A stretch of DNA of 64,000 nucleotides from Gemmatimonadaceae bacterium (GTDB lineage Bacteria > Gemmatimonadota > Gemmatimonadetes > Gemmatimonadales > Gemmatimonadaceae): the NCBI GenBank assembly GCA_019752115.1, contig JAIEMN010000019.1:186001-250000 (forward strand), written 5' to 3'. The notes below the pieces were generated by a model, which saw nothing but the letters and a program-made list of their open reading frames with translations, was not told where the DNA came from and did no database searches. The translations under genes and the position numbers were made by a program. Below are positions 25,047-62,652 of this stretch, one piece after another. The first letter of the stretch is position 1; every line of letters starts with the position of its first letter.

Positions 25047-25064
25047 CCGCAGTTCCCGCACCAC

Positions 25065-25108
25065 GTATACGTGTACGTATACGAACTACGTATACGTGGT
25101 ACGTATAC
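25065..25108. repeat. CGTATACG array, four palindromic units (half-element)
   Basis: GTATAC hexamers, each inside a CGTATACG octamer, start at 25065, 25077, 25090 and 25103 (spacing 12, 13, 13). The array lies in the 80-bp gap between the convergent ruvA and M28 peptidase genes. It is followed by GCGCGAAAGCGGTTTACCG, which resembles the spacer of the double array at 46636-46755, so this looks like half of that element. Confidence 0.75.
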
Positions 25109-25126
25109 GAGGTGCGCGAAAGCGGT

Positions 25127-46628: not shown

Positions 46629-46635
46629 GAGGAGC

Positions 46636-46755
46636 GTATACAAACGGCGTATACGAAGGGCGTATACGTGTCGCGTATACGAACCTCGGGAAACGCGGTT
46701 CTCCGCTTCATGTATACGATCACGTATACGCCCCACGTATACGCCCCAGGTATAC
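46636..46755. repeat. CGTATACG double array, 4 + 4 palindromic units around a spacer
   Basis: GTATAC hexamers start at 46636, 46649, 46662, 46675 and then 46712, 46724, 46737, 46750 (spacing 13,13,13, gap 37, then 12,13,13). The two halves can pair unit by unit into a long stem of ~8-bp helices separated by ~5-nt internal loops, closed by a ~31-nt spacer that has its own small GCGG...CCGC stem. It fills the gap between convergent genes. A half-element with the same spacing follows ruvA. Confidence 0.85.
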
Positions 46756-46759
46756 GCAG

Positions 46760-51365: not shown

Positions 51366-51490
51366 GGGAGGTGCCCGAACGACGAGCTAGCCGAGCGCAG
51401 GGAAACAAGTTAGCAGCAATCCCGGCCCACGTTTCGTCACACCGCGCCATGACACCCTGTGCCAGCAGTGTGACGCTCGATCACACTCGC

Positions 51491-51550
51491 CGTCACAATT
51501 CACGTCACAATCGACGTCACAATTCACATCACAATTCACGTCACAATTGC
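51491..51550. repeat. Five tandem 12-bp units CGTCACAATTCA
   Basis: Units begin at 51491, 51503, 51515, 51527 and 51539, an exact 12-bp period, with only one or two changes per unit. They lie 126-185 bp upstream of the hybrid kinase start codon on its template side, where a direct-repeat operator could sit. On the minus strand the unit reads TGAATTGTGACG. Confidence 0.75.
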
Positions 51551-58734: not shown

Positions 58735-60303
58735 ATGCCGCGCACCGCACCGCTCGTTTTCTCCTCGCTGTTGGCCCTGACCGCCCTGACCGCCTGTACG
58801 GCGTCGGAACAGAGCCCCGTGCGGCACACCTTCGTGGACTCGCGCGACTGGAGCGACCCCGTCTCGCTCGATCCCGCGCGCGCGCCCGACGTGCCCGCCG
58901 GACGTGCGGTGTCGTACCTCTTCGACGGGCTCACACGCTTCACCCCCGGCGGTCAGGTGGAGCCCGGCCTCGCCACCAGCTGGGACGTGAGCGCGAGCGG
59001 CACCGAGTACACCTTCCATCTGCGACGCGGCGTGACCTTCCACGACGGCACGCCCTTCACCGCCAAGCAGGTGGTGAGCGCCTTCCGCCGCGTGCTCAAT
59101 CCGGCCACCAAGGCCGGCACCGTGTGGCCGCTCTATCCCATTCGTGGCGCGCGTGACGTCGCCGCCGGCAAGAGCGACCAGCTCGGCCTCGCCGCCATCG
59201 ACGACAGCACCGTCGTCATCTCGCTCGAACAGCCACTCGCCATCTTCCCGAAGCTGCTCGCCATGCCGGTGGCGAGCATCGTCCCCGAAAGCGCGGGCGA
59301 CAACTTCAGCGAGAAGCCCATCGGCACCGGCCCGTGGAAGCTCGTCGAGTGGAAGCACGACGATTACCTCAAGTTCGCCAGGAACGCGTCGTACTTCGGC
59401 GGCGCGCCGAGCATCGATACGCTCATCGCGCGCATCATCCCCGAGCCGAGCACCGCCGTCGCCGAGTTTGAAAGCGGTACGGTGGACATCCTCTACATCC
59501 CCGAAGATCAGACCAAGGCCTGGGAGAACACCGACGAGCGCAAAGCCAAGCTCGTCAGCGCCCCCGCCTTGCGCCTCTGGTACCTCGGCATCAACAACAC
59601 CCGCGGCCCGCTGAAGGACGTGCGCGTGCGCCAGGCGATCGGATACGCCATCGACGTCCCGACGCTTCTGCAGCAGCTCCTCGCCGGCCGCGGCACCGTC
59701 GCCGCCGGCGTGATCCCGCCCAGCCTCGACGGCGCCGACAAGAGCCGCACGCCCTTCGCCTACGACACCGCCGCTGCGCGCAAGCTGCTCGCCGACGCCG
59801 GCTATGCGAAGGGCGTGGACCTGGAGCTGTGGAGCTCGCAGACCGCCCCGTGGCCGCGTCTCGCCCAAACGCTCCAAGCCTACCTCGGCGCCGTGGGCAT
59901 TCGCCTCAAGCTCGTCCAGCGCGACGCCCCGAGCATGCGCGCCGCCGCGCGCGCCGGCCAGACGGATCTCGTGATCAAGGACTGGTACGCCGACTACCCC
60001 GATGCCGAGAACTTCCTCTATCCGCTGCTGCACAGCGCCAACGCCGGCCCGGGCGGCAATGTCTCGTTCTACAAGAACGCGACCTTCGACAAGCTGGTCG
60101 ACGAGGCGCGCCGCGAGTCCGATGCCGCGAAGCGTACGGCGTTGTATCGGACGTCAGACTCACTCGCCTACGGCGACGTGGGACTGCTGCCGCTGTTCTT
60201 CTACAACGAGGTGTACGCGGTGCAGCCGTGGGTGAACGGGTTTGAGGTGCCGGTGATCTTTAATGGGCAGCGGTGGACGAAAGTCACGCTTGGGGGGAAG
60301 TAG
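58735..60303 (+). CDS. Peptide/nickel-type ABC transporter substrate-binding lipoprotein
   Basis: A 522-residue SBP_bac_5 (DppA/OppA-like) protein. Its lipobox 'LTALTACTAS' predicts lipid attachment to the Cys near position 21. Family motifs: 'DPVSLDPARAPDVPAGRAV', 'SASGTEYTFHLRRGVTFHDG', 'KPIGTGPWKLVEWKHDDYL' and 'VRVRQAIGYAIDVPTLLQQLL'. It captures oligopeptides outside the inner membrane. The DppB-like permease gene at 60930 is next in the same direction, separated by the repeat-bounded four-helix cassette. Divergent from tamA. Confidence 0.92.
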   Translation: MPRTAPLVFSSLLALTALTACTASEQSPVRHTFVDSRDWSDPVSLDPARAPDVPAGRAVSYLFDGLTRFTPGGQVEPGLATSWDVSASGTEYTFHLRRGVTFHDGTPFTAKQVVSAFRRVLNPATKAGTVWPLYPIRGARDVAAGKSDQLGLAAIDDSTVVISLEQPLAIFPKLLAMPVASIVPESAGDNFSEKPIGTGPWKLVEWKHDDYLKFARNASYFGGAPSIDTLIARIIPEPSTAVAEFESGTVDILYIPEDQTKAWENTDERKAKLVSAPALRLWYLGINNTRGPLKDVRVRQAIGYAIDVPTLLQQLLAGRGTVAAGVIPPSLDGADKSRTPFAYDTAAARKLLADAGYAKGVDLELWSSQTAPWPRLAQTLQAYLGAVGIRLKLVQRDAPSMRAAARAGQTDLVIKDWYADYPDAENFLYPLLHSANAGPGGNVSFYKNATFDKLVDEARRESDAAKRTALYRTSDSLAYGDVGLLPLFFYNEVYAVQPWVNGFEVPVIFNGQRWTKVTLGGK

Positions 60304-60325
60304 AGGGGGGGTCAACGGCTGAACT

Positions 60326-60373
60326 GCGGGAAGACTTACTGCGGGAAGACTTACTGCGGGAAGACGTACGGCG
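60326..60373. repeat. Left 48-bp inverted repeat of the four-helix cassette
   Basis: Three copies of GCGGGAAGACTTACT-type 15-bp units; the last reads GCGGGAAGACGTACGGCG. A further partial ACT precedes it at 60323. Exact complement of 60853-60900. Confidence 0.9.
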
Positions 60374-60449
60374 ATTGACTGCGTTGGAATGGTTGGGTGC
60401 GCGTCGGAATGATGTCACTGACGCGCACCGGTTTTGCTAGAGTCGCCGT

Positions 60450-60848
60450 ATGAGCGATTCCAGCAATCTCCGGGTACTTGGTGCGGCTGAGGATTTCGCC
60501 GCAACGGTACAACAGGCCATGAGCCGCGTCGACAACTGGCGTGTGCCTGGCGAGCGCGCACAGCTATTGCGCGCCTCTTCATCGGTTGCCGCCAACATCG
60601 CGGAGGCGGCACGACTGGGCACCGATGCGAACATGGTGCGCCAGCTCCGTCTGGCCTTGGCCTCCGCCGAGGAATGCGGCGTACACCTTCGGCTGATCCA
60701 TGAGGCGAGAGCCCTGGACCCGATTTCGATCAAGCGCTGCCAGATCAAGCTCGCGACGGTCTCCAAGATGCTCTACGGGTTCATCCGAGCCGTGGAAGAA
60801 CGCGAAGCCAGAGCCGAGAATGACCGGAGGGACAAGAAGCGGAGGTAA
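60450..60848 (+). CDS. Four-helix-bundle protein (23S rRNA IVS / Avd-like family)
   Basis: A 132-residue all-helical protein. The core 'LLRASSSVAANIAEAARLG' matches the family signature (Ser-hydrophobic-x-x-Asn-Ile-Ala-Glu), followed by 'LRLALASAEECGVHLRLIHE' and a C-terminal helix pair with a basic tail 'DRRDKKRR'. Family knowledge: members are encoded in intervening sequences of some 23S rRNA genes, and the Avd accessory protein of diversity-generating retroelements shares the fold and binds nucleic acid. Here it is the only gene inside perfect inverted repeats. No reverse transcriptase or 23S gene is nearby. A role in repeat binding is inferred. Confidence 0.85.
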   Translation: MSDSSNLRVLGAAEDFAATVQQAMSRVDNWRVPGERAQLLRASSSVAANIAEAARLGTDANMVRQLRLALASAEECGVHLRLIHEARALDPISIKRCQIKLATVSKMLYGFIRAVEEREARAENDRRDKKRR

Positions 60849-60852
60849 CCCT

Positions 60853-60900
60853 CGCCGTACGTCTTCCCGCAGTAAGTCTTCCCGCAGTAAGTCTTCCCGC
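60853..60900. repeat. Right 48-bp inverted repeat of the four-helix cassette
   Basis: Begins CGCCGTACGTCTTCCCGC and continues with two CAGTAAGTCTTCCCGC units. It starts 4 bp after the gene's stop codon and is an exact reverse complement of 60326-60373. Confidence 0.9.
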
Positions 60901-60929
60901 TTGTCGGTAGCCGTACGATCTTCCCCACC

Positions 60930-61847
60930 GTGCTCCAACTCCTAACCCGCCGCCTCCTCCTCAGCCTCCCCACCCTCGCCGGTGTCCTCGCCGTCGTCTT
61001 CCTCCTCCTCTACGTCGCGCCCGGTGATCCGGTGCAGGCGATGGTGGGCGAGCGGGCCGATGCGGCCACGATTGCGCGGTTGCGGGCGGAGCTGCGGCTC
61101 GACGATCCGTTGCCGGTGCAGTTCGTGCATTACGCGGGCGGCATCCTGAAGGGCGACCTGGGGCGCAGCTACATCACGAATCGGCCGATCGTGCAGGACA
61201 TCGCCGAGCGATTCCCGCGCACGTTGCTGCTCGCGGGCGCGGCGATGCTGTTGGCGACGATCACGGGCGTCACGATCGGCGTGCTCGCCGCGGTGAAGCC
61301 GAACGGCTGGTTCGATCGCCTCGCGCTGGCCACGACGTATCTCGGGATTTCTTTTCCGGTGTACTGGATCGGCCTGTTGCTGATCGTGCTCTTCGCCGTC
61401 ACCCTGCGCTGGCTCCCCGCGTCGGGCTTTGGCCGCCCGGAGTTCCTCGTGCTGCCGGCGCTCGCACTCGGCTCGCGCTCCATCGCCTATCTCGCCCGCG
61501 TCACCCGCGGCGCGATGCTCGAGGTCATGGGCGCCGACTTCGTGCGCACCGCCCGCGCCAAAGGCCTCGCCGAACGCGTCGTCATCACGCGCCACGCCCT
61601 CCGCAACGCGCTCATCCCCGTCGTCACCGTCATCGGTCTGGACTTCGGTGCCTACCTCACCGGCTCCATCCTCACCGAAACCATCTTCAGCTGGCCCGGC
61701 ATCGGCCGCTACGTGGTGATGGCGATTTCACGACGCGACCTCCCCGCCGTGCAGGGGACGGTGTTGTTCCTGTCGGTGGTATTCGTCCTGGTGAATCTGG
61801 CGACGGATGTGATGTACCAACGAGTGGACCCGCGGGTGAGGGCGTAG
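60930..61847 (+). CDS. DppB/OppB-type ABC transporter permease
   Basis: A 305-residue permease with a GTG start and six membrane helices. Motifs: N-terminal 'LLLSLPTLAGVLAVVFLLLY', 'APGDPVQAMVGE', 'GDLGRSYITNRPIVQDI' and the coupling loop 'RTARAKGLAERVVITRHALR', then 'ETIFSWPGIGRYV'. It would pair with a DppC-type permease; none follows here, but one is encoded at 16345-17214. It probably works with the binding protein upstream. Confidence 0.9.
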   Translation: MLQLLTRRLLLSLPTLAGVLAVVFLLLYVAPGDPVQAMVGERADAATIARLRAELRLDDPLPVQFVHYAGGILKGDLGRSYITNRPIVQDIAERFPRTLLLAGAAMLLATITGVTIGVLAAVKPNGWFDRLALATTYLGISFPVYWIGLLLIVLFAVTLRWLPASGFGRPEFLVLPALALGSRSIAYLARVTRGAMLEVMGADFVRTARAKGLAERVVITRHALRNALIPVVTVIGLDFGAYLTGSILTETIFSWPGIGRYVVMAISRRDLPAVQGTVLFLSVVFVLVNLATDVMYQRVDPRVRA

Positions 61848-61870
61848 CGAGGCGGGCGGGGAAAGACTGG

Positions 61871-62003
61871 TACTGCGGAAAGGCGTACGGCGGGAAGACG
61901 TACTGCGGGAAGACACACAGCGGGAAGACGTACCGCGACACCGCAGTAAATCGCCGTACGTCTTCCCGCAGTACGTCTTCCCGCCGTACGTCTTTCCGCA
62001 GTA
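61871..62003. repeat. 133-bp gene-free inverted element of the GCGGGAAGAC family
   Basis: Left arm 61871-61914 and right arm 61960-62003 are reverse complements over 44 bp with one mismatch (GGCG against GACG). Units alternate TACTGCGGGAAGACG and TACGGCGGGAAGACG. The 45-bp centre contains further partial units (GCGGGAAGACGTACCG and CGCCGTAC). It lies between the permease stop and the adenosyltransferase gene and encodes nothing. Confidence 0.85.
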
Positions 62004-62044
62004 CATCAGTTCACCTCCCCCCCAAGCCGATTACCTTTCGCCCC

Positions 62045-62590: not shown

Positions 62591-62602
62591 CTCCGCGCTG
62601 TT

Positions 62603-62652
62603 CGTCTTCCCGCAGTACGTCTTCCCGCAGTACGTCTTCCCGCCGTACGCCG
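62603..62652. repeat. Single-orientation GCGGGAAGAC-family array
   Basis: Three units in the CGTCTTCCCGCAGTA orientation (62603, 62618, 62633; 15-bp period), the last with CCGTACG. No opposing arm is present. It lies between the adenosyltransferase stop and the aroB start, and overlaps the region where an aroB ribosome site would be. Confidence 0.8.

Follow-up and report, generated by a model that had tools for sequence, protein, structure and literature searches.

PF05635 four-helix-bundle genes between private inverted repeats: a probable small mobile element of Gemmatimonadaceae and other bacteria

What is a gene for a small four-helix-bundle protein doing between perfect inverted repeats, inside the gap that separates two peptide-transporter genes, and how did gene and repeats come to lie there together? 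The question is raised by one locus of the window, by which we mean the whole 64,000-nucleotide stretch of Gemmatimonadaceae DNA that was analyzed. From the stop of an oppA-like peptide-binding protein gene (58735–60303, plus strand) to the start of an oppB-like permease gene (60930–61847, plus strand) there is a gap of 626 bp (60304–60929), filled by a cassette. Its left arm (60326–60374, plus strand) is made of three 15-bp units, GCGGGAAGACKTACT, with the G-rich strand in gene sense, and is 100% complementary to the right arm (60852–60900, minus strand), its inverted copy, at a spacing of 477 bp. The original prediction had described exact inverted repeats of 15-bp units around a 132-residue gene, and this description holds in all but the arm length, which was given as 48 bp and measures 49 bp (49/49 positions complementary). 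Such perfect arm identity is consistent with arm-to-arm recombination, conversion, or a recent arrival. The enclosed open reading frame (60450–60848, plus strand; 132 aa, predicted pI 10.0) matches the PF05635 profile 23S_rRNA_IVP, of the S23/IVP four-helix-bundle family, in a profile search (E 9.5e-16; 58.4 bits vs. a curated cut-off of 33.8). The 15-bp unit is matched 17 times in the window, where chance would give 0.65; a gene-less inverted pair of it occupies the oppB-ATR gap (61870–62004; palindrome core 61875–61999, ΔG about −97 kcal/mol), and a single array lies in the ATR-aroB gap (62600–62649, minus strand). An operator-like hairpin, GGTGCGCGTC...GACGCGCACC, is found at 60396–60431, between the left arm and the start codon; a leader hairpin as a general feature of the family was considered and rejected (median z −0.33).

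The source genome contains seven PF05635 genes, six of them between long inverted repeats whose sequence is different for each gene. The same arrangement was sought at 95 PF05635 loci of the source genome and 40 relatives (L106 being excluded from the counts, and most of the genomes searched being drafts), by aligning the left 500 bp to the reverse complement of the right 500 bp. With a score threshold of at least 18, which was picked after the control distribution had been seen, arms were detected at 81 of these loci vs. 24 of 950 swapped-flank controls, the top-scoring control pairs having a repeat family in common. Among the ordinary-sized predicted genes of the source genome the score is reached by 3 of 261: two are PF05635 genes, and the third has an element of the 15-bp family on either side. 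Read in gene sense, the left arm has more G than C in 72 of the 81 elements, and median element length is about 620 bp in the source genus and order, with 450–520 bp in cyanobacterial plasmids. A scan of named genomes gave a further 80 PF05635 loci from many phyla; arms exceeded the threshold at 41 of 79 loci in other phyla (control 6/790), mostly as heptamer arrays (e.g., AGGATCA, TAGGCAG, GGGAGTC, AGTGGTT), and the association was weaker in Bacteroidota (8 of 21 loci).

Arms went undetected at 14 of the 95 loci of the source genome and relatives, at about half of those in other phyla, and at a larger share of those in Bacteroidota. Several of the armless genes are one orthologous locus, which may be domesticated or decayed. 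Six armless genes (L055, L058, L060, L064, L065, and L086) have a common neighbor gene of about 304–310 residues across species, and may have been domesticated for a role in the cell. Three further four-helix genes (L067, L068, and L096, in G009 and G006) are placed within large inverted arrays with a unit of about 120 bp, compared with the usual 7–15 bp; since the near-identical copies L068 and L096 of one genome are embedded in these arrays, they are uninformative on the element ends.

The repeat family is private to each gene copy and genome, and its gene-less derivatives are dispersed. Across 1.19 Mb of the source genome, all six of its own families have gene-less copies away from the gene (19, 7, 9, 3, 8, and 3 clusters), whereas 14 families taken from other genomes give 0–1 clusters in the same DNA; a search of the 40 relatives for the 15-bp family found none. 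The Phormidium array GGGAGTC and the betaproteobacterial array AGGATCA behave likewise, counting 137 and 58 sites, respectively, within the genome of origin and 0 in nine others. Related repeats appear to go with related proteins, as far as a modest correlation indicates (Mantel rho −0.19 for all pairs and −0.15 for non-syntenic pairs; permutation sd 0.05). The 15-bp family comprises 29 clusters, counting each arm of the gene-bearing cassette as one; 21 of the 29 are intergenic by the gene calls of a simple hexamer model made for this analysis, vs. 15% of random positions, and six are no more than 16 kb away from the gene (expectation 0.18), a distance picked after the data had been seen. Among the gene-less copies of the six families, many consist of a single palindrome of 70–240 bp (about −60 to −147 kcal/mol), often situated in intergenic gaps, tens of bases from gene ends. 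Their pairing survives sequence change in two families, where 82–91% of cells are paired vs. 36–56% when the alignment is slid, with 88% and 91% of cells paired in the main helix of the two families; compensatory changes barely exceed those of shuffles. Homogenization of arms within a copy was considered and is not claimed, the excess over between-copy identity being small (0.86/0.81, 0.90/0.85, 0.89/0.85) and absent in one family. Other arrays also occur in the window. Those with a 13-bp unit and the palindromic core GTATAC are located at 25063–25110 and, as an inverted pair, at 46634–46758, with more elsewhere in the genome; no arms matching this dispersed GTATACG-unit family were found at any of the seven four-helix genes of the source genome, and it may be a second class of element or a family whose gene was lost. 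A tandem array with a 12/24-bp unit, CGTCACAATTCA, at 51480–51548 is unlike the 15-bp family in both period and sequence.

Movement can be followed by comparison of related loci. The oppA-oppB gap is nearly empty in four relatives (G008, G025, G029, and G033), and in three others (G006, G009, and G018) it is occupied by a palindrome without a gene; its units, TGAGAACTCAGAG, belong to the repeat family that accompanies the four-helix genes L099 and L103 at other sites of G006 and G018. In these same three genomes the oppB-ATR gap carries a palindrome of the L097/L101 family, where the source genome has the 15-bp family. A different PF05635 gene (L141, 40% identical) stands beside oppB in G010, in reverse orientation and adjoining a separate hairpin, a case of one intergenic gap being used repeatedly. 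The clearest evidence comes from cyanobacterial plasmids, which provide pairs of filled and empty sites: an arm-gene-arm unit of 517–518 bp in Calothrix brevissima vs. about 11 bp in Tolypothrix, Aulosira, Nostoc carneum, and Nodularia; 477–486 bp in Nostoc C052 vs. 36–42 bp in two C057 plasmids (flanks 91–97% identical) and in UHCC 0926, with arms lacking the gene at the same insertion site in ATCC 53789; 448 bp in Picosynechococcus 7003 vs. 32 bp in 7002; and 494 bp in Nostoc edaphicum vs. 13 bp in Calothrix NIES-4105. At sites that are collinear in all other respects, the whole unit is either there or missing; it is mobile as a block. The plasmid junctions are at or near a gene end, and no target duplication was found at the filled/empty plasmid pairs whose empty sites are gene-free. 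Stanieria NIES-3757 and PCC 7437 (98%) differ by the gene plus one arm, which either insertion or deletion could explain, and Dolichospermum (L308) was discarded as a clean empty site, another palindromic repeat being present there. In one pair of relatives, L097 and L101, the gene is flipped between the arms within collinear flanks, and therefore the arms recombine. Taken with the surveys above, these loci agree with the remaining expectations of the original prediction: that the repeats would be tied to four-helix genes elsewhere, that each repeat family would have one matching gene, that relatives would show an empty site (which proved to be empty or differently occupied), and that the system would resemble RAYT proteins and REPINs, an analogy that fits the gene-specific, dispersed gene-less palindromes.

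Three cyanobacterial plasmid copies are found in another setting: L299, L303, and L315 are four-helix genes inside CRISPR-Cas operons (twice between cas6 and cas4, once between cas10 and cmr3). They look like insertions, and neighborhood-based searches could misread them as accessory Cas genes.

The AF2 model of the window protein (pLDDT 94.8) matches, by Foldseek, 2gsc and 2rld and then Avd (4dwl; TM about 0.85 by target) and the particle of diversity-generating retroelements (DGR). One solved PF05635 protein, XCC0516, comes from Xanthomonas. The proteins of the family are basic (median pI 10), and dN/dS values of 0.04–0.22 for their genes point to purifying selection on the protein. Five residues (Q38, N49, E52, S72, and E75) are conserved in 130–131 of 131 aligned proteins and two more (R41 and S45) in 124, with neither His nor Tyr in the conserved columns; in the model, the polar residues 38, 41, 45, 49, and 52 of helix 2 are predicted to lie on one face. 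No nuclease or transposase motif was recognized in the protein, PF05635 being its sole Pfam match.

We consider that these loci are probably small mobile elements of arm-gene-arm layout, comparable to REPINs and their RAYTs, in which the basic four-helix protein, together with host enzymes, would recognize and place its own arms. On the proposed mechanism, the protein, as a fold relative of Avd, would recognize its arms in single-stranded, folded form. Replication or repair enzymes of the host would assist it in inserting them at further positions close to stop codons, with no target duplication left behind. The gene-bearing copy would act as the master and the gene-less hairpins as its passengers, as REPINs do with respect to a RAYT; that the four-helix protein itself spreads the repeats is our inference.

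The main alternative is that the gene is a passive hitchhiker, with some other role such as RNA binding or regulation, trapped between arrays that the host spreads by slippage, hairpin-primed synthesis, or recombination. We regard this as improbable, though not negligible. It would account for a protein that lacks a catalytic domain, the arms do recombine in L097/L101, local expansion of arrays is possible, and some of the 15-bp clusters (6/29) are close to the gene. It has to be set against the fact that PF05635 genes are the only ones found between arms in the source genome, save for a gene flanked by two separate elements, and that every array family tested is restricted to a genome with a matching gene; the protein is also under strong purifying selection, with invariant polar residues, and it is complete arm-gene-arm units that are inserted at new sites.

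Two other routes would bring in a dedicated enzyme. A transcript with a long hairpin might be bound by the Avd-like protein, which would recruit a reverse transcriptase so that the cDNA is inserted in SINE-like fashion; the fold is similar to that of Avd and of the DGR reverse-transcriptase particle, and DGR gene neighborhoods often contain PF05635 (PMC10053308). This route is very unlikely because RVT_1 (PF00078) was found in 4 of 41 genomes, vs. PF05635 in 37 of 41; G016, 99% complete, has nine PF05635 genes and no reverse transcriptase, and the arm mismatches carry no sense-strand G-U bias (223 G-U vs. 327 A-C). The absence of a G-U excess also led us to reject the idea that the sense transcript is selected to form an RNA stem. 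Alternatively, the protein could act in trans with a conventional transposase or integrase that recognizes the arms, the units then being MITEs of an unrelated IS, a reading to which we would attach scarcely any weight. Terminal inverted repeats with small non-coding derivatives would suit it, and a phage-type integrase gene adjoins the Calothrix copy; that gene, however, is equally found at empty sites, target duplications are absent at the filled/empty pairs, and the arms are wholly different between families and matched to the four-helix genes of their own genome.

Several known systems resemble parts of this element. One is the intervening sequence (IVS) of 23S rRNA genes (Coxiella, Leptospira, Brucella), which shares the protein family, the position of the ORF within a terminal inverted repeat, and the heptamers: in Coxiella an S23 ORF lies in the loop of a 28 bp terminal inverted repeat, tandem GACAGAT heptamers adjoin the ORF, and mobility of the IVS has been proposed and is unproven (PMC4990558). 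Those sequences lie within helices of the rRNA and are cut out by RNase III, whereas the present elements are placed between protein genes and have private, dispersed gene-less families as well as filled and empty sites; none of 20 other loci tested is within a 23S rRNA gene, and the window copy is between oppA and oppB. As judged by the published description, the S23-encoding IVS of Coxiella probably represents an element of this kind that resides in rRNA. With REPIN/RAYT systems the elements have in common a single gene between inverted palindromic repeats and a gene-specific repeat that is dispersed in the genome in gene-less, intergenic form. They are not members of that group, because the HUH enzyme is absent: RAYTs are HUH (Y1) transposases, whereas the present protein is a four-helix bundle with no HUH or other recognized catalytic domain, and its repeats are short-period arrays rather than single REPs. 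Avd shares its fold with the window protein; it partners a dedicated reverse transcriptase and template/variable repeats, however, neither of which was found with the present element. No DGR features were found near the window element, and the one RVT_1 of the source genome is on contig C7.

The heptamer arrays are a further point of contact. In the accessible part of its description, the Xanthomonas array GGGAATC is dispersed and intergenic, with 70–75 convergent inverted pairs per genome, and neither a partner gene nor a mechanism is given there (PMC4692102). The Nostoc array GGGGAYT, of the cyanobacterial STRR type, is likewise G-rich, dispersed, and intergenic, and heptamer arrays of this kind flank four-helix genes in Phormidium, Nostoc, and Calothrix. 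By analogy, and as far as that partial description goes, the Xanthomonas arrays are likely to be another case of such elements. In the portions of the open-access literature available to us, no published explanation was found for the dispersed heptamer arrays of Xanthomonas and cyanobacteria. Nor was a paper found there that describes the elements outside rRNA, an earlier description being possible; the layout itself was already known inside rRNA, and it is its generality, the dispersed gene-less families, and the filled and empty sites that are not described in the open-access literature searched.

Broadly, the origin and mobility of the IVS and the function of S23/four-helix proteins are questions that have stood for some 30 years, and one small element could tie together the rRNA IVS, these proteins, and the heptamer arrays. 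It is conceivable, though we would not yet lean toward it, that PF05635 is a new type of mobility enzyme or recombination factor, that with its invariant polar set (Q38, R41, S45, N49, E52, S72, E75) it mobilizes hairpin DNA of its own family, and that it accounts for the rRNA IVS and the Xanthomonas and cyanobacterial heptamer arrays as one bacterium-wide class. The filled and empty sites in culturable Nostoc, Calothrix, and Picosynechococcus make the question accessible to laboratory testing. What we describe looks like a widespread and largely unrecognized class of mobile DNA in many bacterial phyla, without a known transposase, and it may thus add to the known repertoire a class that annotation pipelines record merely as “four helix bundle protein.”
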